Source: Amycolatopsis sp. DSM 110486
GTDB lineage: Bacteria; Actinomycetota; Actinomycetes; Mycobacteriales; Pseudonocardiaceae
Assembly: GCF_019468465.1 (NCBI RefSeq)
Contig: NZ_CP080519.1
Location: forward strand, 5,878,501 to 5,942,500
Length of the DNA stretch: 64,000 nt
Reading direction: 5' to 3'
This document shows, piece by piece, positions 37,223 through 48,293 of this stretch. Both the position numbers and the translations under genes were made by a program. The stretch's first letter is position 1, and each line of letters begins with the position of its first letter. Below the pieces are notes generated by a model, which saw only the letters and a list, made by a program, of their open reading frames with translations, ran no database searches and was not told where the DNA came from.

Positions 37223-37684
37223 ATGGCCGTCGAGGTCGGTACGCCAGCCCCGGACTTCACGCTCAACGACTACAACAAGCAGCCCGTCACGCTGTCGTCG
37301 TTCAAGGGCGACAAGCCGGTGCTGCTGGTCTTCTTCCCGTTCGCGTTCAGCGGGACCTGCACCGGCGAGCTGTGCCAGCTGCGTGACGAGTTCGCCGACT
37401 ACGACACCCAGGGCGTGCAGATCCTGGGCGTCTCCGTCGACGCGGTCTTCTCGCTGAAGGTGTGGGCCGAGCAGCAGAACTACCAGTTCCCGCTGCTCTC
37501 GGACTTCTGGCCGCACGGCGCGGTCGCCCAGGCCTACGGCGTCTTCAACGACAAGGCCGGCATGGCCCTGCGCGGCACGTTCCTCATCGACACCGACGGC
37601 ATCGTCCGCTTCGCCGAGGTCAACCAGCCCGGCGAGGCTCGCGACCAGTCGGCGTGGAAGAAGGCCGTGGCCGAACTGGCCTGA
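37223..37684 (+). CDS. ahpE: peroxiredoxin AhpE (1-Cys type)
   Basis: A 153-residue thiol peroxidase. The peroxidatic Cys is in FPFAFSGTCTGELCQLRDE (PxxxTxxC motif), with a second Cys four residues later. AhpE reduces peroxides and peroxynitrite, using mycothiol/mycoredoxin in actinobacteria. Length and N-terminus (MAVEVGTPAPDFTLND) match the family. It lies directly upstream of the tRNA-Val gene. The order aceE / DUF3052 / ahpE is conserved with mycobacteria. Confidence 0.95.
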   Translation: MAVEVGTPAPDFTLNDYNKQPVTLSSFKGDKPVLLVFFPFAFSGTCTGELCQLRDEFADYDTQGVQILGVSVDAVFSLKVWAEQQNYQFPLLSDFWPHGAVAQAYGVFNDKAGMALRGTFLIDTDGIVRFAEVNQPGEARDQSAWKKAVAELA

Positions 37685-37733
37685 CGTTCTTTTTGTTGAC
37701 GGGCCCGGCTTCTCACCGGCCGGTCCCGTCAGC

Positions 37734-37808
37734 GGGCGCATAGCTCAGCGGAAGAGCACTCGGTTTACACCCGAGCGGTCGCAGGTTCGAACCCTGCTGC
37801 GCCCACCA
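37734..37808 (+). tRNA. tRNA-Val (anticodon UAC), integration target
   Basis: The acceptor stem GGGCGCA pairs with TGCGCCC, the D stem is GCTC/GAGC, the anticodon stem CTCGG/CCGAG holds loop TTTACAC (anticodon TAC), and the T stem GCAGG/CCTGC holds TTCGAAC. CCA is encoded at 37806-37808. The last 43 bases before CA are duplicated at 47794-47836, so the 3' half of the present gene was supplied by the integrated element's attachment site and the gene stays functional. Confidence 0.97.
37764..37806. repeat. attL, 43-bp attachment repeat within tRNA-Val
   Basis: Runs from TTTACACCCGAGCGG in the anticodon loop to GCGCCCAC at the 3' end of the tRNA. It is identical to 47794-47836. Tyrosine integrases of AICEs use such tRNA 3' segments. 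Confidence 0.96.
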
Positions 37809-37813
37809 GGCGA

Positions 37814-37846
37814 AACGGGGCTCCCAAGATTATTGGGAGCCCCGTT
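37814..37846. terminator. 14-bp perfect-stem bidirectional terminator
   Basis: AACGGGGCTCCCAA at 37814-37827 and TTGGGAGCCCCGTT at 37833-37846 with GATTA loop, between the tRNA and the integrase stop. It separates host transcription from the element. Confidence 0.93.
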
Positions 37847-37863
37847 GACATCACCACTTGACA

Positions 37864-39024
37864 TCAGTCGCCGGTGGCGCGGCGGTCCATCCGGTCCGCC
37901 AACCGCTTCTTTGCCGCGTCGAGGACGTGGCCGTAGATGTTCGCCGTCGTCGCGATCGAGGCGTGGCCGAGCTGTTCCATCACCTCCCGAATGGTCGCGC
38001 CGTCGAGCAGGAGCAGCGTCGCTGCGGTGTGACGGAGGTCATGGACCCGGACGTGGTCGAGCTTGGCGTTCGTCAGGATGCGATTGAGCATCGTGTTGAC
38101 GTTGCGCGGCTCCACGACGCGGCCTGAACTCGTGACGAAGATGAGGTCGTCCGGTTGCTCCGGAGCAGGGTTGAGGGGCTCTGAGAGCCGCTCAGCCGTT
38201 TGCTGTCGGTGCTTCGCCAGGGCGGCAAGCGCGACCCGGCCGATGTAGACCTCCCGGCGGGAGCGCTTCGTCTTCACCTTGCCGAACAACAGCCGGCCTC
38301 GGACCCGCTGCACCGTCCGGCGGACCTTCACCAGCCCCGTCTCCATGTCCACGTCCGACCAGGCGAGCCCGAGGGCTTCTCCCTTCCTGAGCCCGGTTGT
38401 GACGAGGATCAGCCAGAGCGCGTGCAACCAGTGAGCCGCGATCGCTCGAATGAACGCGCGGGCGGCCTCTTCGTCCAACGGCTCGATGTCGGTTTCCCCG
38501 CGGCTTGGCGTGGCCACCAGGCGTGCGACGTTCCGCCCGATCAGCTCTTCCCGGCAGGCGTTGCTCAGAGCGCTTCGTAGTACCTCGAAGACGTTCTGTA
38601 CGTACCGGTCGGACAGCTTCTCGCCGAGGACAGTCTTCTCCTTTCGTAACTTCGCGATGAGGGCTCGCACGTCACGCGGCGTCAACGCATTCATCTTCCG
38701 TTTGCCGAGGTGGGGCTTGATGAACCGCCGAATGACGGTCTCGTACCCGGCGTACGTCGATTCGGCGCGCTCGACCTTGACGATGCTCTCCACCCAGTAG
38801 TCCAGGTAGTCGCCGAGTTGCATGGTCGAGCTCATCGACGGCACGCCCTTGCGGTTGTTGTCCAGCAGCTCGACGCGCTTCGCCTTCACCTCGTCGCGGG
38901 TCTTGCCGTAGACGTACTTGCGCTTGGTGCCCCCGTCCGGCGTCAGTACGTATACGGCGGCGTGGAATCGCCCGTCTTTTCGGGCGACGATGGTGCCCAT
39001 GCCGTTCTCTGCTCGCTTCGCCAT
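37864..39024 (-). CDS. int: tyrosine site-specific integrase
   Basis: A 386-residue recombinase. The N-terminal Arm/SAM-like domain (about 1-165) precedes the catalytic domain with Arg in VTTGLRKGEALGLAW, HxxR in VHDLRHTAATLLL, and HxxxxxxxxY in LGHASIATTANIYGHV. It integrates and, with Xis, excises the element at the tRNA-Val site. The ATG at 39024 overlaps the xis stop (TGATG), with AGGAGG within the end of xis, so the two are translationally coupled. It lies next to attL as usual. Confidence 0.96.
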   Translation of the reverse strand: MAKRAENGMGTIVARKDGRFHAAVYVLTPDGGTKRKYVYGKTRDEVKAKRVELLDNNRKGVPSMSSTMQLGDYLDYWVESIVKVERAESTYAGYETVIRRFIKPHLGKRKMNALTPRDVRALIAKLRKEKTVLGEKLSDRYVQNVFEVLRSALSNACREELIGRNVARLVATPSRGETDIEPLDEEAARAFIRAIAAHWLHALWLILVTTGLRKGEALGLAWSDVDMETGLVKVRRTVQRVRGRLLFGKVKTKRSRREVYIGRVALAALAKHRQQTAERLSEPLNPAPEQPDDLIFVTSSGRVVEPRNVNTMLNRILTNAKLDHVRVHDLRHTAATLLLLDGATIREVMEQLGHASIATTANIYGHVLDAAKKRLADRMDRRATGD

Positions 39025-39281
39025 CAAGCGGCCTCCTGGATGAGACTGTTCACGTAGTCCTCGACCGAGGACCGTGGGATTCGGCGGGCTCCGAAGACCT
39101 TCACGGACTTGAGAAGATCAAGCCGAATGAGGTCGTACACGCGAGTGCGGCCGATGTTCAGGAGATGGGCGGCCTCCTCGACTCGCAGCAACAGGCGGTC
39201 GGTGGCTTCGGTGTCGTGCGTCTGCATTGGATGCGGCTCCGGGGTCGCTGGTGCGGGTGGCGGTGTCGCTTGACGGCGCAT
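39024..39281 (-). CDS. xis: excisionase, MerR-like winged helix
   Basis: An 85-residue protein with an excisionase/BldC-type HTH: LLLRVEEAAHLLNIGRTRVYDLIRLDLLKSVKVFGARRIP (key: EEAAHLLNIGRTRVYDLI), preceded by a Pro-rich N-terminus of about 28 residues. It directs excision by bending DNA at att. The start at ATG 39281 has AGGAGGAGG directly upstream. It is coupled to int. Confidence 0.92.
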   Translation of the reverse strand: MRRQATPPPAPATPEPHPMQTHDTEATDRLLLRVEEAAHLLNIGRTRVYDLIRLDLLKSVKVFGARRIPRSSVEDYVNSLIQEAA

Positions 39282-39424
39282 CTCCTCCTCCTTCGAATTC
39301 GGGCGTGCTCGATCGCCGTGCGTCGCCAGCTGGTGAGGCGGGCACTTGGCGTGGTGCGGGGTATGAGTTACGGCGTCGACCGTGTCCGCACGTGCTATCC
39401 AGGGCGGGATTTGGACGGCCGGTG

Positions 39425-39545
39425 GCGAGGGCCTAACTCGCGTAACTTTGTAACTTTTGCCTGGCCAGGGGTCGAATTACGTTCGTAACTCGCTGAGTTA
39501 GTCGTAACTGTCTGGTTGGGCCGTAACCGGGTACGTAACTCCGGG
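39425..39545. repeat. core-and-word module A (word GTAACT)
   Basis: Core TTTTGCCTGGCCAGGG at 39455-39470. It is flanked on both sides by five GTAACT, one GTAACC and related TAACT/GTTA copies within 120 bases. Part of the gene-free 628 bases between xis and the 84-aa gene; see the other modules for the shared core. Confidence 0.75.
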
Positions 39546-39585
39546 ATGGCGGTGCTGCTTGGCCGGTGTTGCAGGGTCGGTGGGC

Positions 39586-39722
39586 GGGTGAGTTGGGAAT
39601 GAGTTGGCGGATGAGTTCGGGTCGGGGCGGATGAGTTGACTCATTCCGAGGATGAGTTCCTCATTTCGGGTCTTGACCAGGGAAAATGAGCTGGAATGAG
39701 CTGAATGAGGCGGATGAGCTGG
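39586..39722. repeat. core-and-word module B (word ATGAGTT)
   Basis: Core in reverse orientation, TTTTCCCTGGTCAAGA on the minus strand (39671-39686). Flanks hold four ATGAGTT, three ATGAGCT, one GTGAGTT and two CTCAT copies. Confidence 0.75.
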
Positions 39723-39909
39723 CCTGGTTGGGGTGCCTGTGGGGGCCGGTTTTCGCCGTGCGCGCGGCGGGCGGGCGGACTCATTCGCCGGTGGGCTGCC
39801 CCCTCCTGCCAGCCTTGGCGAGGTGGCTGGGTCGCAGGTGCTGGCAGGTGGGGGGTGGCTCAGTGAGTGGGCCGTGGCCTGCTCGGCTGGTGGCCCGTTG
39901 CGCGGGGTT

Positions 39910-40164
39910 TCAGCGCCGTCTCTGGCGGGTGTCCACTGAGCCACTGGCGGCGGGTTCGGCCTGGTCGTGCCCAGTGGATCGGGTGGAGTGGGTGGGCAGT
40001 GGGAATCCACCGCGCGCGCCGCGATCCACTGGCGGCCCGATGAGGGAGCCACTGGTGGCGAGGCGTTCGGCGGTGTGGTCGAGCCGGCCGACGATGCCGT
40101 CAATGCGGGCGATGGCCTGGCCGGCCAGCTGGTGCAGCCGGGCGGCGGCCGACGCGTGAGACAT
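39910..40164 (-). CDS. small protein, 84 aa, helical N-terminus
   Basis: The ATG at 40164 is preceded by AGAAGGAGG at good spacing, which supports a real gene. Residues 1-40 (SHASAAARLHQLAGQAIARIDGIVGRLDHTAERL) look like an amphipathic helix pair. The C-terminal half is low-complexity and is encoded by module C, so the repeat has invaded or formed the 3' end of the gene. Function is unknown. Confidence 0.6.
   Translation of the reverse strand: MSHASAAARLHQLAGQAIARIDGIVGRLDHTAERLATSGSLIGPPVDRGARGGFPLPTHSTRSTGHDQAEPAASGSVDTRQRRR
39928..40056. repeat. core-and-word module C (word CCACTG/CAGTGG)
   Basis: Core GGTTCGGCCTGGTCGTGCCC at 39953-39972. Flanks hold four CCACTG and two CAGTGG words. It overlaps the 3' half of the 84-aa gene. 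Confidence 0.65.
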
Positions 40165-40209
40165 GGGCGGAGCCTCCTTCTGAGTTTCGGGCCGTTGTGG
40201 AGTGGCGGC

Positions 40210-40426
40210 GGGGTAGGGAGGGAATCGGGCGAGGTGGTCGACAGGGCCGTTTTCCGGGGTTGTGGAGGGGCGATTCCCTTCGATTCCCTCGCTCCCTCAC
40301 TCCCTTCCGGGGGTGTTTTCGCTGGTCAGGGTTAGGGAATGGGTTAGGGAGGCGTGGAGGGAAAATTCCCTCGCTTGCTGGCGGCTCCCTGGTGATTCCC
40401 TCGCCGTTCCCTCGGGAGGGGACGCG
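40210..40426. repeat. core-and-word module D (word TCCCTC/AGGGA)
   Basis: Core GTGTTTTCGCTGGTCAGGG at 40313-40331. Eight TCCCT and five AGGGA words surround it, with TCCCT mainly to the left and AGGGA immediately to the right. GGGTAGGG at 40211-40218 fits the FtsK KOPS consensus GGGNAGGG. Confidence 0.8.
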
Positions 40427-40482
40427 GCAACACCGTGGCCGTCGGCCTGGTTTCGTGGCCTCCCGGACGGCTGCGGTCGGGT

Positions 40483-40617
40483 CGTTCCCCCGCTCCCCTT
40501 TCTCCCCTCCGGGTGGGTTCGCGCTGGTCGGCTTGGGGGAGCCAGGGAGGGGAGCCAGGAGAAGCGAATGCTTCTCCGCGCGGGCCGGTTCCCCTGCTCG
40601 TTCCCCCGGCCGGTGGC
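40483..40617. repeat. core-and-word module E (word TCCCC/GGGGA)
   Basis: Core GGGTTCGCGCTGGTCGGC at 40515-40532, flanked by five TCCCC and two GGGGA words. A short palindrome GAGAAGC-GAAT-GCTTCTC also lies inside (40558-40575). Together with module D it fills the 456 bases between two small genes. Confidence 0.75.
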
Positions 40618-40620
40618 GGG

Positions 40621-40962
40621 TTACGGCACTGCCGGATCAGGCCAGCCGACCCCCGGATTGCGGGGTGTCGGGTGGTGCGCGGATCCGTAATCCGGGCGGT
40701 GGCCGGCACCCGCCCGGCGGCGTCGGCGCCGGGTGCTGGGGATCGCCTCGCCCCACCCATCGCCCCACTGGTGTCGGGCGGTGCGCGGCGCGGGCGGCGT
40801 GGACAGTTCGGTGTCGATGACGGTCATGGCCCAGCCGAGGACGCGGGCGATGGCGAGGAACGGGAGCCGGGCCAGGTGCAGGCCGGTGAAGACCAGAAGC
40901 AGGCTGGTGAAGCGGACCAGGGCGAGCGTGCCGTAGCGGTCGAGGACGTTGGTGGCGTTCAT
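40621..40962 (-). CDS. small membrane protein, 113 aa (Spd-like by size and position)
   Basis: It starts at ATG 40962 with AGGAGG eight bases upstream. Residues ~10-45 form one or two hydrophobic segments (TLALVRFTSLLLVFTGLHLA, LPFLAIARVLGWAMTVI). The rest is basic and low-complexity. Small hydrophobic Spd proteins are common beside transfer genes of AICEs and Streptomyces plasmids, but I see no sequence proof. Function is unknown. Confidence 0.6.
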   Translation of the reverse strand: MNATNVLDRYGTLALVRFTSLLLVFTGLHLARLPFLAIARVLGWAMTVIDTELSTPPAPRTARHQWGDGWGEAIPSTRRRRRRAGAGHRPDYGSAHHPTPRNPGVGWPDPAVP

Positions 40963-40999
40963 CGCAGGTGGCCTCCTGTCGTCGGTGTGTCCGTTTTGC

Positions 41000-41147
41000 C
41001 GGAGTGAGTTGGGGTGAGTTGCGGGTGAGTTGCGGGTGAGTTCGGCCGGATCGGGGTGAGTTGACGCACTCGCGGGTGAGTTGGGTTTTCAGGGCTCTGA
41101 CCAGCGGAAGTGAGTTGGGGTGAGCCGAGTGAGCGGGGTGAGATGGC
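41000..41147. repeat. core-and-word module F (word GTGAGTT)
   Basis: Core on the minus strand, CTTCCGCTGGTCAGAGCCC (41092-41110). Seven GTGAGTT and three other GTGAG copies flank it, all in one orientation. It forms the left part of the 611-base gene-free region 40963-41573. Confidence 0.8.
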
Positions 41148-41220
41148 CTCTGAGGGGTGCTCACAACCCCGGTTTTCGGGGTTGTCGCACGACCCGGTCC
41201 GAACTCACCCGGTCCGGGTT

Positions 41221-41244
41221 GGCGGGTGGTGCTGGTCCTCTCGG
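41221..41244. repeat. possible core-and-word module G
   Basis: GGTGGTGCTGGTCCTCTC resembles the core and lies beside two CCGGTCCG words (near 41193-41216), like module I. It is the weakest member of the set. Confidence 0.35.
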
Positions 41245-41280
41245 AGGGTGGGCGGGTACGAGCTGAGCGGGTTGGGCGAC

Positions 41281-41575
41281 CTGTGCCAGGCATGCGGGAC
41301 CCGTGCCAACCCGTGCCACCCCTGGCACGGGTTGTGCGGGTGTCCTGACCTGCGGAAACGATCGAATTTCGGCGGACCTGTGCCACGTGCCAGGGGTGGC
41401 ATGGGTGTGGCACGGGTCGGGACCTGTGCCAGGTCCTGTGCCACCTGGCGCGGGTGGCACGGGTCGGGGTTTTCTGGGGTGTTTGCGCTGGTCACGGGTG
41501 GTTTCTGACCTGTGCCACCCCTGGCACGGGTTGGCACGGGTCGCGTGGGCCTGGCACGGGTCGGCCGGCGCGGTC
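41281..41575. repeat. core-and-word module H (word TGGCAC/GTGCCA)
   Basis: Core GTGTTTGCGCTGGTCACGGG at 41479-41498. Fourteen GTGCCA/TGGCAC hexamers surround it, many extended to CCTGGCACGGGT. The last word touches the stop codon of the helicase gene. Confidence 0.8.
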
Positions 41576-42725
41576 ACGGCAGGCTCCAGATGGTGTTCCG
41601 GCCCTCGGTGTGCACCGCGAGCTTGAGCTTGGCGCGGGCGCGTTGGGCGGTCCGCTCGGTGAACCCGGCCGCTTTTGCTGCCTTCTTCACCTCGCCGGAC
41701 GCGGCCTCGCCGCCCTGGCTGGTCAGGAACTCGCTGAGCCATTCGGCGACGGCTTCGGCGTCGGTGCGTTCCTCCCGGGTGGGCGGGGCGTCGTCGAGCA
41801 GGTCGTTGACGTGGGTGTCGGTTTCGCCGGTGACGACCATGCGGCCCCACTGGGCCGGGCCGTCGGCGGTGTCGAGTTCGACCGAGTCCACGACGTAGCG
41901 CAGCGAGGGGACGTCGAGGTCACCGAGGTTGTTCTTGACCTGGGAGATCACGCACGATCCGTCTCCGGCGGCGGTGTCGCGGGCGAACGCGATGACCGCG
42001 CGGGCGACGGCGGAGAACGCGCGGCCGCCCATGATGCGTGAGAGCACGTCGGTGCCGCTGGCCTTGTTGAAGTGGGCCAGGCCGAAGATCGCGCACCCGG
42101 TGTCGTCAGCCAGCTGCTTGAGCGGTTCCAGCCCGGTCCTCAGGTCCCGGTCCTGGTGCGGGTTGATCCGGTCGTCCAGCACGGAGATCAGCGGGTCCAC
42201 GATCAGCAGCGCCACGTCGTGCTCGGTGATCACGGCCGCCATGGCGTCGCAGTCCTTGGGCAGCGACAGCGGCACGGATGCGCCGCCGAGCGCCTCGACC
42301 TCGACCCGGTAGACGCGGTCCAGGTCCGCTCCGGCGACGCGGAGCCGCCCGGCCAGCGTGCGTTCCCAGGAGTCCTCGGTGGCTGCGTAGATGACGCTCT
42401 TCGGGTGCCCGTAGTGAACGCCGGGCAGCTCGCCGAGCGTGACCCGGGCCGCGAGCCACGCGCAGAACAGGGACTTGCCGATGCCTTCACGGCCGGGGCC
42501 GATCGCCAACGCGCCGTGCGGAATCCGGCCGTCCCACAGCCAGTGTGTCGGCTTGAGCGGGATGTCGGCGACTTTGGTCAGCCGGACCTGGCGGGCGGGG
42601 ACCGGCGGGCTGTCGTACGGGTCCTCAACCGGGTCCGGGAACGGTTCGGGGTCCAGTTCGTGAACCCCGGTGGCGGGTCCGTTCACGGGCCACAGGGTGC
42701 GCCCGTTGGTTGCGGGGTGGGTCAC
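41574..42725 (-). CDS. RepA-like AAA ATPase/helicase with C-terminal winged helix
   Basis: A 383-residue protein. Walker A is GPGREGIGKSLF, Walker B is VALLIVDPLISVLDD, and GLAHFNKASGTD, IMGGRAFSAVARAVIAF follow, the order of RSF1010 RepA-type hexameric helicases. A C-terminal winged helix of ~60 residues (SGEVKKAAKAAGFTERTAQRARAKLKL) could bind DNA. It is the probable replication protein of the element. GTG 42725 is chosen because AAGGGAG lies 7 bases upstream and the longer frame N-terminus is low-complexity shadow sequence. No primase or polymerase domain is visible. Confidence 0.88.
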   Translation of the reverse strand: MTHPATNGRTLWPVNGPATGVHELDPEPFPDPVEDPYDSPPVPARQVRLTKVADIPLKPTHWLWDGRIPHGALAIGPGREGIGKSLFCAWLAARVTLGELPGVHYGHPKSVIYAATEDSWERTLAGRLRVAGADLDRVYRVEVEALGGASVPLSLPKDCDAMAAVITEHDVALLIVDPLISVLDDRINPHQDRDLRTGLEPLKQLADDTGCAIFGLAHFNKASGTDVLSRIMGGRAFSAVARAVIAFARDTAAGDGSCVISQVKNNLGDLDVPSLRYVVDSVELDTADGPAQWGRMVVTGETDTHVNDLLDDAPPTREERTDAEAVAEWLSEFLTSQGGEAASGEVKKAAKAAGFTERTAQRARAKLKLAVHTEGRNTIWSLP

Positions 42726-42753
42726 TGGTGAACTCCCTTGCGGCGGTCGTGCC

Positions 42754-42910
42754 GGACTCGGTCCGGTCCGGGCGGACCGTGGGTGTACTCGTGCTGGTCC
42801 CGGGCCTGTTTGACCCGGTCCGGACGGGTCCGGGTCCATCGGACTCAGGCCCCGGTCCGGGGCTGGGGAACCGCTCCCGGACCCGGACCCGGACCGGGAG
42901 CACGGAGCGG
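42754..42910. repeat. core-and-word module I (word GGTCCGG/GACCCGGA)
   Basis: Core GTGTACTCGTGCTGGTCCCGG begins at 42783. Around it lie five GGTCCG words and several CGGACC words. GACCCGGA occurs at 42880-42887 and 42886-42893, and as its complement at 42829-42836. It extends into the 3' end of the 112-aa gene, where it codes for Pro-Gly repeats. Confidence 0.75.
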
Positions 42911-43183
42911 GACCGGGACCGGGACGATGTCGGTCCCGTCGCGGCGGGCCTTGGCGACGGTCTCGGCGAGGGCGGCGCGGCCGTCGGGGTCGGTCGGTTC
43001 GTAGAGGGCGATGGCGAGGAACTCGGCGCGGCCGGTCGTCGGGTCGAGGTCGAACACGGGCACGTAGAAGCGGGTCCCGTCGGTGATGATCAGCGACAGG
43101 TCTTCGCGCAGCCCGCCGCCCGGCAGTGGGGCGGGTGGGGTGTGCCCGGTCCGGCGGTAGGGGTCGCGGGGTGCGGATGCCAT
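42845..43183 (-). CDS. hypothetical protein, 112 aa
   Basis: ATG 43183 has GGAGG upstream. The first ~75 residues look folded (EDLSLIITDGTRFYVPVFDLDPTTGRAEFLAIALYEPTD, key segment FYVPVFDLD), with alternating strands. The C-terminal PGPGPG tail is encoded by repeat module I. It is found in an array of small element genes with the same orientation. No family is recognised. Confidence 0.7.
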   Translation of the reverse strand: MASAPRDPYRRTGHTPPAPLPGGGLREDLSLIITDGTRFYVPVFDLDPTTGRAEFLAIALYEPTDPDGRAALAETVAKARRDGTDIVPVPVPLRAPGPGPGPGAVPQPRTGA

Positions 43184-43282
43184 CGGGTTGCCTCCAACGG
43201 GGCGCGGGGGGGTGAGGGCACAGGGATGCCCGGGACAGGAAGAGGGGAAGTGGTCGGCGACGGCCCGGTGGCCGGCCGGGTG

Positions 43283-43672
43283 CTACAGGGGCGGGCGGTC
43301 GCGGTGGGCCTTGCGGCATAGTTCCTGCGCGGCGACCTGGCAGCGGTACGGGTGGGCATCGGCCGGGAACGCGTCGAGCTCGTTGCCCTCGCGCAGTCGC
43401 TGGGCGGCGCAGGCCAGCTGGCCGCGACCGCAGATCCGGACGCCGCGCACGGCTGCGTCGGCGGCCTCGTTGGTGAGCAGGCCGTAGCGGCCGATCTCCT
43501 CGCCGCTGTGCGCGATGGCGAGGGCGACCTCGTCGACGGTGAGCACCCACGGGGCGGGCGCGTCGGCCGGCCACATTCCCAGCCGCTCCACCGCGGTGCC
43601 GTCCAGTGCGGTGGCGGGTTCGGCGGGGGCGAGGCGGTGGCCGTGGTCGTAGGTGGCGAACCCGGTGGTCAC
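43283..43672 (-). CDS. hypothetical protein, 129 aa
   Basis: The GTG at 43672 overlaps the stop of the preceding gene (GTGA), indicating translational coupling. The protein is helical with three cysteines (RICGRGQLACAAQRL, YRCQVAAQELC). The C-terminal C-x(12-14)-C spacing could bind metal, but the pattern is not diagnostic. Part of the small-gene operon of the element. Unknown function. Confidence 0.7.
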   Translation of the reverse strand: MTTGFATYDHGHRLAPAEPATALDGTAVERLGMWPADAPAPWVLTVDEVALAIAHSGEEIGRYGLLTNEAADAAVRGVRICGRGQLACAAQRLREGNELDAFPADAHPYRCQVAAQELCRKAHRDRPPL

Positions 43673-44106
43673 TGGGTCACCTCGTCGGAGGTGCGCGGGT
43701 GCGGGACCTGCCGCGCCGTGCGGGTACGACGGGCGGCGGCGTGCGCGGCGACCAGCTCGGCCACGATCGGGCGGATCATCTCGGCGCGTTCGGTGTCCCA
43801 GCTGCCCGGCTTGGCCGCGTCCAGCTCGATCCGGGCGGCTTCCATGCCGTCGCCGCCGATCCCGAACAGCATCTCGGCCATGGCGCCCCGGATGTAGGCG
43901 GTGTCCGCGAGCGCGGCGGCGACGTCGTCGCGGCCCTCGCCCTTGGTGGCCGCCCACAGCACCGCGACCAGGTCTTCGACCGAGACCGGCACGACCAGCC
44001 CGAGGTTCATCACCACGCGGGTGTCGTTGTCCTGCCGGTGGGTCGGGATGAACTCCGTCGCCACACCAGCCATCAGCGCGTGTCCCATGTGCGTCGTCGT
44101 CGCCAT
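43669..44106 (-). CDS. hypothetical protein, 145 aa
   Basis: It starts at ATG 44106, 2 bases after the stop of the upstream HTH gene, and is coupled to the next gene. It is predicted helical in the C-terminal half (DVAAALADTAYIRGAMAEMLFGIGGDGMEAARIEL). No motif is recognised. Its position between an HTH protein and other small genes of AICE type suggests a role in element maintenance, which is inference. Confidence 0.75.
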   Translation of the reverse strand: MATTTHMGHALMAGVATEFIPTHRQDNDTRVVMNLGLVVPVSVEDLVAVLWAATKGEGRDDVAAALADTAYIRGAMAEMLFGIGGDGMEAARIELDAAKPGSWDTERAEMIRPIVAELVAAHAAARRTRTARQVPHPRTSDEVTQ

Positions 44107-44108
44107 GA

Positions 44109-44381
44109 TTACGCCACCTCCGCCGCGTCGATGCTGACCTCGGTGTCGTCGGCCGCCGCCGACTCGTCGCCCTTGACGTAGCCCTGGTAGGCCGCTTCGG
44201 CGCAGGTCTCCAGGTAGGTGTTCACGGCGTGGCCGGGGATCCGCAGGGCACCCTTGCCGGTGCCGATCTTGAGGGCGTCCAGCTGGCCGGACTCGATGGC
44301 GCGGTAGATGGTGGCGCGGGAGACGTCGAGCATCTCCGCCAGCTGCTTGACCCGGAAGTACCGGTTACTCTCGACCTGCAT
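44109..44381 (-). CDS. excisionase-type helix-turn-helix DNA-binding protein
   Basis: A 90-residue protein. The HTH is YFRVKQLAEMLDVSRATIYRAIESGQLDALKIGTGKGALRIP (key VKQLAEMLDVSRATIYRAI), the MerR-like HTH_17 fold. ATG 44381 has GGGAG upstream. It differs from Xis at 39024 and heads the small-gene operon, so it is more likely a regulator or replication accessory protein (like pSAM2-type small HTH proteins) than a second excisionase. It is divergent from the GntR gene. Confidence 0.85.
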   Translation of the reverse strand: MQVESNRYFRVKQLAEMLDVSRATIYRAIESGQLDALKIGTGKGALRIPGHAVNTYLETCAEAAYQGYVKGDESAAADDTEVSIDAAEVA

Positions 44382-44494
44382 CGTTGCTCCCAGAGGTTTC
44401 GATGTGGGCCCCGGTTGGTGCTGCAACACCGCCGGGGCCGTTTGCTGTCGTCCAGGATCTCTGTGATCCCTGCGACGAGAGGAACAGTAGGACG

Positions 44495-44529
44495 ACATAG
44501 CCAACATGGGCAATATGAGTGGACTATGT
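44495..44529. promoter_or_regulatory. ACATAG/CTATGT inverted repeat, candidate GntR operator
   Basis: ACATAG at 44495-44500 and CTATGT at 44524-44529 flank two half-site-like copies (CAACATGG, CAATATGA) in the 192-base divergent region between the HTH and GntR genes. GntR repressors such as KorSA of pSAM2 control their own and replication genes through repeats of this sort; assignment here is inference. Confidence 0.45.
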
Positions 44530-44573
44530 TCACCCAGGTGGGTTAGTTGACTTGGTGCCGTAACCTGGCCGAC

Positions 44574-44924
44574 ATGCCAAAACTCGACCCGAACGACGCG
44601 CGCTCGCCCTACCTGCAGGTGTCGGAGTCGCTTCGCTCCCAGATCTTCGCTGGCTCGTTCAAGCCAGGGGAGAAGTTGCCCTCGCATCAGGCCATCGCCG
44701 AGGACTTCGGCGTGTCCGTGGGGACCGTCAAGCGGGCCTTCGCGGAGCTGCAAGAGGAACAGCTCATCGTGACTCGGCAGGGGCAGGGGTCGTTCGTGCG
44801 TGATCCTCTGCCGGCCGTTGCGGACCACGGAACGACTGGCGACCTCGGCCAGGTGTACGAACAGATCGCCACCATTCGCCAGCTGCTCGACTCGGTGGAA
44901 CGTCAACTGCGCGCTCATGGTTAG
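44574..44924 (+). CDS. GntR-family regulator (YtrA/KorSA type)
   Basis: A 116-residue regulator: a wHTH (PYLQVSESLRSQIFAGSFKPGEKLPSHQAIAEDFGVSVGTVKRAFAELQEE, key PGEKLPSHQAIAEDFGVS) and a short C-terminal helix (QIATIRQLLDSVERQLR) for dimerisation. It lacks a large ligand domain. In AICEs such proteins repress replication and transfer. I start at ATG 44574 rather than the TTG at 44547 because the residues upstream do not look like GntR. It is divergent from the small-gene operon; its stop overlaps the stop of the small gene at 44921 by four bases. Confidence 0.9.
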   Translation: MPKLDPNDARSPYLQVSESLRSQIFAGSFKPGEKLPSHQAIAEDFGVSVGTVKRAFAELQEEQLIVTRQGQGSFVRDPLPAVADHGTTGDLGQVYEQIATIRQLLDSVERQLRAHG

Positions 44925-45121
44925 TTCCCCAGGTTCCGGAAGAACGTCACTAGGCCATCGATCGCGCCTCCGGCGGTTCCAGCGGCACCCTTGGCCCAGC
45001 TTGCAGCGTCTGCGGGGTAGTGCACGATCAGCGCCAGGAGTGCGAGCGCAACGCACGCACCGAGAACTTTCCGGAGTGCGCCGCCGCCGGTCTTGAAACC
45101 CGGAATCTGGCTCTTGGCCAT
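44921..45121 (-). CDS. small protein with hydrophobic segment and possible signal peptide, 66 aa
   Basis: The basic N-terminus (MAKSQIPGFKTGGGALRK) is followed by a hydrophobic stretch (VLGACVALALLALIVHY) and then PADA-AS, which fits a signal peptidase I site (Ala at -3 and -1). Cleavage would release ~27 residues, ASWAKGAAGTAGGAIDGLVT and FFRNLGN. Alternatively it is a one-helix membrane protein. It is divergent from the HTH-TPR gene across a palindrome. No family is recognised. Confidence 0.7.
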   Translation of the reverse strand: MAKSQIPGFKTGGGALRKVLGACVALALLALIVHYPADAASWAKGAAGTAGGAIDGLVTFFRNLGN

Positions 45122-45213
45122 CGTGTTCCACCTCCCATGTGCGTTGCTGCGACTTCCGTTGCTGGTGTCGCTGCCTTCGCTTACAACCATCGTCGTCACG
45201 GAGGGTGGAAAGT

Positions 45214-45234
45214 AGTGTCACCGCACGTGACACT
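45214..45234. promoter_or_regulatory. perfect palindrome between small exported gene and HTH-TPR gene
   Basis: AGTGTCAC, a 5-nt centre CGCAC, and GTGACACT form a perfect 8+5+8 inverted repeat. Additional TCACC/GGTGA half-sites follow (45236-45276). It lies 93 bases upstream of the 66-aa gene and 111 upstream of the HTH-TPR gene, suited to control both. Confidence 0.65.
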
Positions 45235-45344
45235 CTGGTGATGTGGGGATACGCCAGCGTCACCAGCGCATCACCGCGTAACACTTGGCGCGGGTGCCAC
45301 ACTGGAAGTGCAGGTCAGTCGGCTGTGAGGGAGAGGGACGCAGG

Positions 45345-46580
45345 ATGAGTGACGACCAACCGTCGTGGGCCAAGCGCATCCGGGCGATGCGGGAGGCGCG
45401 AGGCTGGTCCCAGACGGAGGCAGCGGAGCAGATGCGCCGGCACTCCTCACGGGCGCTGCCTGAGACCGACCATCTGGCGCGGCGCTGGAAGGCATGGGAA
45501 CTGGGGGAGAACAAGCCTGGCCGCGAGTACGCGCCGATCATCGCGGCGACTCTCAACACCGTCACGCAGTCCTTGTTCCCGCCCGAGGAAAAGCCGGAGG
45601 CGGGTCTGGAAATCCTCAATGCCACCGGCATGGACACACTGGAAATCGTGTCCCGGCTTCAGGCATCGGACGTGAACGATGCCACCCTTGAAGCCGTTCG
45701 CATCACAGTTGACAAGCTCTGCTCCGAGTACGCGCGACAGCCGCCCTTCGAGCTGATCGGAGAGGGTCGCCAGTGGCTTCGACGACTAGTCGAAATGCAG
45801 GAGCAACGTCTCAATTTCCGTCAGCGACGCGACACGTTGGAATTGGCCGGCTGGCTGGCGCTCCTGGTCGGTTGCCTCGAATATGACCTCGGCGACCGCC
45901 GCGCGGCCGAGGCGACCCGGCAGGCGGCTCTCAGTCTCGGACGTGAAGTCGGAAGCCCCGGTATTCTCGGGTGGGCTCACGAAATGAGTGCGTGGTTCGC
46001 TTTGACTGCAGGCGATTACCGTGGCGTGGTCGCGGCTGGGCAGGCGGGCGAGGCGGCAGCTGAAAATCACAGCGTATCGGTTCAGCTGATTGCACAGCAG
46101 GCGAAGGCGTACGCACGAATGGGGCGTCGCGAGGAGATGGAAAGCACCCTCGAACGTGGCCGCGTCGCGCTCGACAAGATGGAGTATCCGTCGAACATCG
46201 ACAATCACTTCGTGGTTGATCCGTCCAAGTACGACTTCTACGTCATGGACTGCTACCGGCATGTGGGCGAAGACAGGATGGCGCGTGAGCTCTCGGACGA
46301 GGTGATCAGGGTCAGCTCGGGCTTCAACAACCAGGATCGTTGGCCGATGCGCATCGCGGAAGCTCAGATCACGCTGGGCGTCGTCGCAGCTCGTGAGGGT
46401 GACTTGGATGAGGCCGTGAGCTACGGCCGGAAGGCGATCGGGAGCGGTCGCAAGTCCCTGCCGTCTCTGGCGATGGTGTCGCAGGATCTGGCGGACGTCC
46501 TGCGCGAGCGCTATCCCGGTGAGCGCGAAGCGACGGAGTACCTGGAGCAGCTGCGGGCAATCCAGCGGCCGGCCTCATGA
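45345..46580 (+). CDS. XRE helix-turn-helix regulator with TPR-like domain
   Basis: A 411-residue protein. The N-terminal HTH (WAKRIRAMREARGWSQTEAAEQMRRHS, key RGWSQTEAAEQM) is followed by a long helical-repeat region of about 300 residues with TPR-like units (GDYRGVVAAGQAGEAAAENHS, YARMGRREEMESTLERGRVAL, ARELSDEVIRVSSGF, GDLDEAVSYGRKAIG). This is the architecture of RRNPP peptide-sensing regulators. ATG 45345 has GAGAGGGACGCAGG upstream. Its TGA overlaps the ATG of the next gene, showing coupling. Confidence 0.88.
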   Translation: MSDDQPSWAKRIRAMREARGWSQTEAAEQMRRHSSRALPETDHLARRWKAWELGENKPGREYAPIIAATLNTVTQSLFPPEEKPEAGLEILNATGMDTLEIVSRLQASDVNDATLEAVRITVDKLCSEYARQPPFELIGEGRQWLRRLVEMQEQRLNFRQRRDTLELAGWLALLVGCLEYDLGDRRAAEATRQAALSLGREVGSPGILGWAHEMSAWFALTAGDYRGVVAAGQAGEAAAENHSVSVQLIAQQAKAYARMGRREEMESTLERGRVALDKMEYPSNIDNHFVVDPSKYDFYVMDCYRHVGEDRMARELSDEVIRVSSGFNNQDRWPMRIAEAQITLGVVAAREGDLDEAVSYGRKAIGSGRKSLPSLAMVSQDLADVLRERYPGEREATEYLEQLRAIQRPAS

Positions 46581-47521
46581 GCGACGCTACGGACTGGATA
46601 TCCGCTGTCTCGACCGCCCTCGCGATGGGCTTCGCGGGGACCGCCGCGGTCTATGCGGCCAAATCCTGGGGCTCCGCGAAGAAGCAGGTCCAAGCGGCCG
46701 AGCGGCAAGTGGAAGCTGCGTATGAGCAGGTCAGAATCGCGGAAGCTGCTACGCAAAGGCAAGAGGAGCGTGCGGCAGCTGCCGATGAGCGCGCCGATCG
46801 CGCGGAAAATAGAGAACTGTTACAAGTCCAGGCGGCGGAAGAACGGTTCATTAAAGCCCAGCTAGATGCTCGTGCTCCGTACGTCTATCTTCGAACCCGG
46901 GACGGATACTCCGGCCTGGCTGGCATCACTTATAATGAGGAGGTGCTTAGCCCGGCGCCGCTCATAGCGGCGTTACCTAAGGAGGCCAGTAGATTAGCTT
47001 TCGATCCTGAGGCTCGCCTTCACAATTACGAACCAAAAGACGGGACAGAGATTCCGTCAGCCGAAGACTTCCTATTCGTGGTGACAATAACTGTTGATGC
47101 GGTCAATGTTTCGGATTACCCCGCGCGAATTAATGTGATCGATATTGGGGAGTTCGATGTCCTTGGTGACTTCCGGGGAAACGATATTATCGTTCCTCAG
47201 CGTGGCGCAAAAACAGTCGTACTGAGACGAGTGATCAGCTCTGCGGAGATTCGAGCGTCTGGAACCTCGGCGGGGATCGCGGACTTTAAAGGTTGTGTCG
47301 TGTATATGAAATTCTGGGCCCGTGATTTTAGCTACAGTGTCCGCGATGAGCTTAATCTGGGTGTGGATCTTCGATTCTTTGCGATGGATGGACAGCGTAT
47401 TATCGTTTCGCGTACCCCTGCGTTTCTGATCAACGAAACCGCCGACATGGGCCCTGCCAGGGTCTACGAGCGGATCGAGGCGGCGAAGGAGCAGGCGGAC
47501 GCGAGTTTGGCCAACCCCTGA
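46577..47521 (+). CDS. membrane-anchored coiled-coil protein, low GC, three TTA codons
   Basis: A 314-residue protein: an N-terminal helix (SAVSTALAMGFAGTAAVYAA), a coiled coil at about 35-95 (KKQVQAAERQVEAAYEQVRIAEAATQRQEERAAAADERADRAE, key heptads KKQVQAAERQV), then a beta-rich domain of ~200 residues ending in FFAMDGQRIIVSRTPAFLI. Codon use differs sharply from neighbours, with AGA and AAA codons and TTA at 46820, 46973 and 46994. The ATG overlaps the HTH-TPR stop (ATGA). It is the element's last gene before attR and its most foreign. Cargo function is unknown. Confidence 0.82.
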   Translation: MSDATDWISAVSTALAMGFAGTAAVYAAKSWGSAKKQVQAAERQVEAAYEQVRIAEAATQRQEERAAAADERADRAENRELLQVQAAEERFIKAQLDARAPYVYLRTRDGYSGLAGITYNEEVLSPAPLIAALPKEASRLAFDPEARLHNYEPKDGTEIPSAEDFLFVVTITVDAVNVSDYPARINVIDIGEFDVLGDFRGNDIIVPQRGAKTVVLRRVISSAEIRASGTSAGIADFKGCVVYMKFWARDFSYSVRDELNLGVDLRFFAMDGQRIIVSRTPAFLINETADMGPARVYERIEAAKEQADASLANP

Positions 47522-47793
47522 CCGGCAGTGTGGAGCGGTCCGAACTCACCTCAACCGGTGAGAGTCCCCGTTCCACCGCCGCGGTCGCCGCCAACGCAGG
47601 GGATCGCCGGAGGCGGCCACGTGGCGGAAGGCTGGCCGCACTCGGCGCGCGTTCTCCGTGTTTCAGCCTCTGGGTATGACATCCAGTTCTGACACCAACG
47701 GGTGTGACCCACCGTGGACAGATCTGAACGATGTTGGACGTCAAAACCATGTGAGTGCAGGAAAAACGCACATGCGAGAGGGGAAGCCCTTAA
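47522..47793. other. gene-free right end of the element
   Basis: No supported gene lies here; reading frames are short or low-complexity. Nothing else stands out before attR; arm sites for Int would be expected here. Confidence 0.5.
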
Positions 47794-47836
47794 TTTACAC
47801 CCGAGCGGTCGCAGGTTCGAACCCTGCTGCGCCCAC
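47794..47836. repeat. attR, 43-bp attachment repeat (tRNA-Val 3' remnant)
   Basis: Identical to 37764-37806, lacking the 5' half of the tRNA and followed by GCGG rather than CA. It marks the right border of the element. Confidence 0.96.
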
Positions 47837-47951
47837 GCGGTCCTCTGGGTGGACTGTGTCCGCGGAACGCGCGGACTGGGTCGTCCCACGGTGTCTTTTG
47901 GGGGTGCAACCCCCAAACCCCGCCCGGCGGGCTTCGCCCCCGGGCCCCCAC

Positions 47952-48293
47952 GGTGGTCGTCTTGGGTGGTCTTGCCCCCGGGCCCCCGCGGTGGTCGTCT
48001 TGGGTGGCCTTGCCTCCGGACCCCGCGGTGGTCGTCTTGGGTGGTCTTGCCTCCGGGCCCCGCGGTGGTCGTCTTGGGTGGTCTTGCCTCCGGGCCCCGC
48101 GGTGGTCGTCTTGGGTGGTCTTGCCTCCGGACCCCGCGGTGGTCGTCTTGGGTGGTCTTGCCCCCGGATTCCCGCGGTTGTCGTCTTGGGTGGGTTGTCT
48201 CCGGATTCCCGCGGTGGTCGGCTTGCGTGGGTGGTCTCCCGGGTTCCGGCGGTCGTCGGCTGGGGTGGTCGTGGCGGCGCCGGACGTTCCGGC
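47952..48293. repeat. 37-bp GC-rich tandem repeat array, about nine units
   Basis: Units begin with GGTGGTCGTCTTGGGTGGTC followed by TTGCCTCCGGGCCCCGC. Starts are at 47952, 47990, 48027, 48064, 48101, 48138, 48176, 48213 and 48251 (37-38 bp apart). The central copies at 48027-48137 are nearly identical; the flanks decay. A 37-bp period changes frame at each unit, so it is not a coding repeat. It begins 116 bases after attR in host DNA. The rest of 47837-48458 contains only similar decayed sequence and the start region of the next gene. Confidence 0.9.

Follow-up and report, generated by a model that had tools for sequence, protein, structure and literature searches.

Actinomycete integrative and conjugative elements (AICEs) combine a site in a tRNA gene with an integrase, an excisionase, a GntR regulator, a replication-type gene and TraB/FtsK. 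TraB is reported to recognize repeated motifs of 8 bp by means of helix 3 in its C-terminal winged helix-turn-helix domain (Vogelmann 2011, as told in PMC3583192). In plasmid pWTY27 the cis-acting locus of transfer (clt) overlaps the 3′-end of traA and has iterated TGACACC words that are footprinted by TraA, and RepA binds the iteron, where a long inverted repeat holds GTGGGAAC/TTCCCAC words (PMC3583192). Classical integrative and mobilizable elements (IMEs) hijack a type IV secretion system (PMC9513070). The subject here is an element of 10.07 kb (37764-47837) inserted at a tRNA-Val gene of Amycolatopsis sp. DSM 110486, within a stretch of 64,000 nucleotides (NZ_CP080519.1, positions 5,878,501 to 5,942,500) hereafter called the window, to which positions refer unless a locus is named. 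It has no detectable TraB gene and carries eight modules, which probably form a bank of clt-like sites where several helper TraB pumps would dock, together with an origin-type site of the element's own.

In each module a word peculiar to it occurs 6-14 times around a common core; like a clt, a module is a cluster of iterated 6-8-bp words. One lies upstream of the helicase gene, the others between the helicase and excisionase genes. Beginning at the excisionase side, the GTAACT module (39425..39550) has six words (three in the rest of the 64 kb) and the core TTTTGCCTGGCCAGGG at 39455+ (score 11.2). The ATGAGTT/ACTCAT module (39580..39730) has ten ATGAG (53 elsewhere) in the layout RFF-core-RRF, R and F being the two word orientations, with the core at 39671- (18.3). 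It is followed by the CCACTG/CAGTGG module (39920..40060; six words, 29 elsewhere; weak core at 39955+, 7.0), which overlaps an open reading frame (ORF; 39910-40164), by the TTCCCT/AGGGAA module (40210..40430; 13 TCCCT, 41 elsewhere; layout RFF-core-RRFFF; core TTTTCGCTGGTCAGGG at 40316+, 25.2), and by the TCCCC module (40480..40620; seven words, 105 elsewhere; core at 40518+, 15.6). The GTGAGTT/AACTCAC module (41000..41140; seven words, four elsewhere) has its core at 41095- (19.3), and the GTGCCA/TGGCAC module (41264..41576; 14 words, 20 elsewhere), directly 3′ of the helicase gene and putatively of origin type, has two, at 41343- (22.7) and 41482+ (23.3). Upstream of the helicase gene, the GGTCCGG module (42740..42930; eight words, 24 elsewhere; weak core at 42788+, 9.3) holds GACCCGGA (42880, 42886) and TCCGGGTC (42829); the former, present seven more times elsewhere in the window on either strand, is the word found 3′ of pSVH1 traB. 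At the rate outside the modules, 0.01-0.23 copies of a word would be expected per module, the limits and words for these counts having been set by hand from the list of an earlier, sequence-only reading of this DNA. That reading had given each module its own word, in 6-14 copies and rare nearby; its counts proved right, as did its remark that modules in places run into the 3′-ends of genes.

The core is centered on CTGRYCAG, its best form being TTTTCGCWGGTCAGRG. With up to three mismatches, TTTTCGCTGGTCAGGG has six matches in the window, all at 39455-41497, whereas 100 dinucleotide shuffles averaged 0.28 matches and never gave more than two. A position matrix, trained on 19 cores of which about half came from the same element loci later scored, placed cores at 39455+, 39671-, 40316+, 40518+, 41095-, 41343- and 41482+ (scores 11.2-25.2). 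The shared core of the sequence-only reading therefore stands far above shuffles; two of its eight positions, 39953 and 42783, are only loose matches (7.0 at 39955 and 9.3 at 42788), and a core that it had not listed, at 41343, has been added. Its expectation of one core with different enriched words was borne out in integrative elements, plasmids and phage-like contigs: at least five copies of one word lie within 100 bases of 36 of the 142 matrix cores in element loci versus 1/51 in reversed sequence. Nor is the core confined to this locus, the exact TTTTCGCWGGTCAGRG being present in 81 of 394 genomes of the class and the backward pattern in none among the matches listed.

The order R-F, core, R-F was seen in 17 of 34 modules, where 20000 random flips gave a mean of 2.4 and a maximum of 10, and, with one module per word, in 10 of 23 (null 1.6, maximum 8); word orientation is non-random. 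This order permits nested pairing, which could speak for modules that act as RNA or single-strand DNA hairpins, in which only self-complementarity would count and the words drift freely. Against word-flipped versions, however, folding energy ranged over the eight modules from a z of -2.2 (better) to +5.5 (worse), and the words beside TraB genes follow the C-terminal part of the protein (see below). The hairpin reading was rejected because the folding test gave no consistent gain in energy, and we regard it as very improbable. Hairpin priming sites were dropped as a candidate once TraB loci with arrays appeared, and the SpdA/sps palindromes of pIJ101 are of a different design (PMC4170104). Local repeats of a simple kind, or a functionless miniature transposon, would account for the repetition of short words; yet the core is conserved across families, the layout is non-random and the place after motor genes is fixed, and such an origin is scarcely credible.

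A scan for TCCCT words with the core returned high-GC contigs in which an array lies directly 3′ of an FtsK/TraB-like gene, and one for ACTCAC words gave two contigs with DnaB-like helicase genes; each scan returned unrelated matches too. PF01580 was found in five of the seven FtsK-like proteins tested, in three of those five at or above the Pfam cut-off. TraB genes were located in 19 of 60 genomes searched, all 19 from the host genus. Counted from the end of TraB homology, at least five copies of one word occur in 22 of 25 host-genus loci versus 1 of 113 in-gene windows, and a core scoring at least 11 lies within 480 bases at the gene end in 22 of 30. In the Micromonosporaceae, arrays around and 3′ of the stop codon were found at 22 of 29 TraB loci and in 0 of 87 in-gene windows. 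The stop-codon rule, retained for the latter family, had missed 11 of the 25 host-genus loci, where the frame runs through the module, so the end-of-homology rule was used there. Five of the 30 host-genus loci were left out of the count: L478, whose 3′ sequence equals that of L461, and the fragments L484 and L487, all with arrays, and L468 and L485, without an array in the stretch examined. From the 30 Micromonosporaceae loci L516, which ends with its contig, was excluded. Background GC-rich 6-mers were removed before words were counted at TraB ends, in the bank comparison and in the dense-module counts.

Within about 160 bases past the stop of pSVH1 traB lie four GACCCGGA words, a reverse copy, and the core TTTGCGCAGGTCAGAG (score 24.6); GACCCGGA is what we take to be the 8-bp clt motif of pSVH1. 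Two TraB genes of the host genome itself, L464 and L481, which lie at G000:C1:2521799 and 8253759, have TTCCCT and TTCCCC arrays on their 3′ side; the window word TTCCCT is identical to the first, and TCCCC is contained in the second. The window modules are themselves not at the 3′-end of a traB/FtsK-like gene, a position that relatives of the same design do occupy. The sequence-only reading knew of no described repeat class with this design, a claim that cannot be upheld: the design matches the 3′ region of pSVH1 traB and the clt and iteron described for pWTY27 (PMC3583192). Judged by design, the modules are not a new repeat class, and the unusual point is that so many specificities occur together in an element lacking TraB.

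The best explanation for the words is that they would bind the C-terminal part of a DNA motor whose gene normally lies alongside. Each module would then be an array on which a ring-shaped DNA motor docks, with words as oriented sites that this C-terminal part reads and with the core as the fixed middle of the site. Next to a gene for a TraB/FtsK-type translocase, such an array would serve in cis as the clt, by which a DNA circle is marked for double-stranded transfer driven by TraB; next to a gene for an AAA_25 or DnaB-like helicase, it would be an origin-type site. The window element, with a helicase and no TraB, would have its own array in the GTGCCA module, whereas the six or seven others (TTCCCT, TCCCC, GTGAGTT, ATGAGTT, GTAACT, CCACTG and perhaps GGTCCGG) would be clt-like arrays of different specificities. 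The element would excise, replicate, and then be pushed into recipients by the TraB of any co-resident actinomycete integrative element. We infer that the words are bound, that the element replicates and is transferred, and that the bank is of benefit to its carrier. The simplest account would be that TraB-less elements keep docking sites for several foreign pumps.

If the bank words are TraB docking words, TraB genes of the same family should carry them. The bank words of TraB-less Micromonosporaceae elements (CTAGGA, CGCTAG, CTGCTA, GCTACC, GGTAAC, CGCGAC and others) were recorded before the TraB loci of that family were retrieved. Such loci were present in 32 of 81 Micromonosporaceae genomes, and their 3′ arrays have at least five copies of CGCTAG, GCTAGC, CTAGCA, CTGCTA, GCTACC, CGCTAC, CGTTAC or GCGACC, with CTAGGA reaching four. 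When at least five of six letters had to agree, 13 of 20 distinct Micromonosporaceae bank words matched TraB words of their own family and 4 of 20 those of the host genus, the figure for random genomic 6-mers being 8.8%. For the Pseudonocardiaceae banks, including that of the window and of a sister element, 10 of 22 words matched host-genus TraB words (null 9.9%) and 4 of 22 the Micromonosporaceae set. These counts are not fully independent, since several bank words are variants of one module type. By this measure bank words tend to match the TraB words of their own bacterial group; in the window three of five clustered words match host-genus TraB words, one (CTCACC) loosely. The matches between bank words and TraB arrays suggest that the element travels by borrowing several different pumps.

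A helicase-based scan yielded 37 related loci, which belong to Pseudonocardiaceae, Micromonosporaceae, Streptomyces and other groups. In the 240 bases where the helicase match ends, one 6-mer occurs at least five times in 25 of the 37, with differing words (a count made with no control windows), and several loci have long rows of extra modules toward the integrase side. A TraB hidden Markov model (HMM) gave no match in the window or in the sister element, L021, and a match in 1 of the 37 related loci, within the stretch available for each; it found 11 of 11 contigs outside its training set, and pSVH1 TraB with an E-value of 1.1e-76. When two TraB proteins were searched against the whole genome, TraB genes were located elsewhere, and none in the window or L021. 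Dense modules number 1.94 per 10 kb in the 38 TraB-less loci (36 related loci, the window and L021) versus 0.65 in 20 TraB loci hand-picked from the TraB listings (Mann-Whitney p 0.0035). Since 19 of the 38 have at least two dense modules and 16 at least three, the bank marks a subgroup.

Covariation points to the C-terminal part of TraB as the reader of the words. Given the identity of the ATPase, identity over the last 85 residues tracks word similarity in both groups examined (r 0.33 for 25 proteins and 0.45 for 23, with 0 of 2000 shuffles each); the test comprised 48 proteins, including 23 of the 29 from Micromonosporaceae, with word labels set by hand. For the helicase, the comparison is offered by L021, which lies in the same genome and aligns with the window element on both sides of 542 unaligned bases (41227-41768). 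These bases contain the helicase gene's end together with the GTGCCA module, in place of which L021 has an unrelated C-terminus and a GCGCAAG module; on this alignment, the helicase C-terminus and the adjacent module have been swapped together. Modules inside the aligned blocks keep the same words. Since the aligned block ends at 39565, L021 does not share the GTAACT module next to the excisionase gene. Identity is 88.7% over 1701 columns in the block with most of the bank and 84.2% over 3045 in the gene block.

The same pair of elements bears upon the main rival, according to which the extra modules are relics, left by recombination with TraB-bearing elements that have since lost their pump genes, and persist by chance without a current function. 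Modules are swapped along with neighboring sequence, and the two GCGCAAG modules of L021 (6931-7096 and 12500-12664), 93% identical over 166 bases in opposite orientation, indicate that a module can be copied as a unit; decayed elements are moreover reported in Streptomyces (PMC9513070). Against relics stand a bank block at least as conserved as the gene block between the two elements of this genome, words that remain in the R-F layout, and banks that recur in Micromonosporaceae and Pseudonocardiaceae with group-matched words. We consider this explanation rather unlikely.

The core extends well beyond these elements. Viral contigs contain at least 120 stretches with the core versus 22 with the backward pattern. 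Among 80 viral loci, 10 of 81 core matches have a word repeated at least five times nearby, so viral cores are mostly without words; an AAA_25 gene lies within 1.5 kb of 5 of the 10 word-bearing cores (two of them in one contig) versus 1 of the remaining 71. In eight Frankiaceae loci (L276, whose genome is shared with L311, L277, L280-L284 and L286) the core has a fixed place at DnaA boxes beside dnaA and/or dnaN, five loci being flanked by dnaA and dnaN signatures, while in three the available stretch includes one of the two genes. By this setting it belongs to the chromosomal origin; the family name derives from a 100% match of member G555 to Parafrankia colletiae over 3807 bases. In 11 of 11 further loci (L298-L308; family f33, probably Streptomyces) the core is embedded in a near-identical noncoding stretch upstream of a carD-like gene. 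The presence of the core at oriC and near carD suggests a common host factor that binds it.

It could accordingly be argued that all modules are replication origins or iterons, with the core as the common origin part and the words binding different initiators. Besides the Frankiaceae cores among DnaA boxes, this is favored by arrays of words and core beside or inside Prim-Pol/AAA_25 or AAA_25 genes of phage-like contigs (L138, L145, L143), by arrays beside DnaB-like helicase genes in others (L448, L454), and by the Corynebacterium glutamicum plasmid pCG2 (L225, 2330-2700), where a CATACA array with the core TTTGTGCTGGTTAAAG follows a Prim-Pol/AAA_25 replication gene; RepA of pWTY27 binds such an iteron (PMC3583192). 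In the window, too, an array stands beside a replication protein gene, the GTGCCA module coming after the AAA_25 gene and the GGTCCGG module upstream of it. Bank words, however, resemble TraB-adjacent words, while AAA_25 arrays mostly have words like GGCTCA, CGGCCA and GCGCCA (by eye); the pSVH1 array sits 3′ of traB, and eight initiators for one 10-kb element would be unlikely. As an explanation of all modules, origins are improbable. A wider proposal is that TraB-less elements with an AAA_25 helicase, an integrase and a bank form a satellite class of double-stranded TraB conjugation, with one array per helper specificity, words tuned to the pumps of the family, and a conserved core, common with chromosomes, phages and plasmids, that is read by a common factor; on this our judgment is evenly divided.

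Several occurrences of the core stand apart from these questions. In phage-like contig L113 (8689-9813) a GAGTAC array with the core falls within an ORF that weakly matches HTH_36, an arrangement that resembles an origin embedded in the gene for an initiator. An inverted core pair, CTCTGACCTGCG ... CGCAGGTCAGAG, is found without word arrays in L140, L168 and L269, and cores adjoin tRNA-gene-like sequences (by eye) in L272, L273, L289, L290 and L295, perhaps at the ends of integrated elements. A second core, about CGTTCCGGAAGCTG, follows Micromonosporaceae AAA_25 genes. Core matches of the host genome in polyketide synthase genes (L002, L007, L008) were set aside, a coding FAGQG motif being read there by eye.

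A number of observations weigh against a bank of docking sites for helper pumps. A bank is not general among TraB-less loci, since 10 of the 38 have no dense module and 9 have one; the strict count also undercounts, as none was found in 7 of the 20 TraB loci. In the window, CAGTGG and AACTCA match no host-genus TraB word under the five-of-six rule, AATGAG matches one, and CTCACC matches CTCCCC alone; the likeness of GTGAGTT to CTCACT (L479, L483), of CCACTG to L460 and of GTAACT to L477 was seen by eye only. A third TraB-like gene of the same genome, L521 (G000:C1:8257909-8259405), has no word module after the gene, and the core that accompanies the array 3′ of L464 is weak (9.3). The core centre is present in 14 of 29 Micromonosporaceae TraB arrays versus 27 of 205 in-gene windows. 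The core is not transfer-specific, because it occurs without words in phage contigs and chromosomes. Covariation of the AAA_25 helicases with their words is not significant (r 0.08, p 0.13, 28 proteins, 3 of 31 having been dropped by length, with word labels set by hand), and so the reading of words by the helicase C-terminus depends on one swap.

The element is bounded by a direct repeat of the tRNA-Val 3′-end: attL, the 3′ half of the tRNA-Val gene identified by ARAGORN (37764..37807, +), is repeated exactly in attR (47794..47837, +). Next to attL are a tyrosine integrase (37864..39027, -; PF00589, E 7.6e-28) and an excisionase-like helix-turn-helix (HTH) protein (39024..39281, -; PF12728, E 3.8e-11). 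The AAA_25 RepA/DnaB-like helicase is encoded at 41574..42728 (-; PF13481, E 1.1e-25), its C-terminal end appearing HTH-like by eye, and a GntR-family regulator at 44547..44924 (+; PF00392, E 1.4e-18). Small genes without known function are also present; one ORF of 113 aa (40621..40962, -) has no family match. Rfam gave four covariance-model matches in 37500-45500, of which the tRNA alone reached the gathering score. Just outside attR, at 47941-48240, lies a separate repeat with GACCACC/CAAGAC units, unrelated to the modules.

Should the rule of core and words hold, candidate clt sites of AICEs could be computed, and it could be predicted which element might borrow which pump. The 48 TraB proteins in their two groups provide a natural data set for the code between the C-terminal DNA-reading domain and the word, and borrowed pumps would also explain the spread of TraB-less elements in actinobacteria. 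In the literature, screened by title and start of abstract, no description of clt banks with several specificities was found. The window design is shared most closely with the clt of pSVH1, which has iterated words directly 3′ of traB and the same core; the common core and the word order are not named in the available part of the account in PMC3583192. It differs in that pSVH1 has one specificity beside its own traB, whereas the window element has several and no traB. From its published description pWTY27 is alike in having a clt and an iteron of iterated words, and unlike in being a full conjugative plasmid (PMC3583192). With AICEs of the pSAM2 type the element has in common the integrase, the excisionase, the att site in a tRNA gene, the GntR regulator and the replication-type gene; unlike them, it yielded no TraB/FtsK gene in the HMM and whole-genome searches, in which the positive controls were found. 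Like IMEs and satellites it would depend on the transfer machine of another element, but its sites would address double-strand TraB pumps, and several types of them at once.

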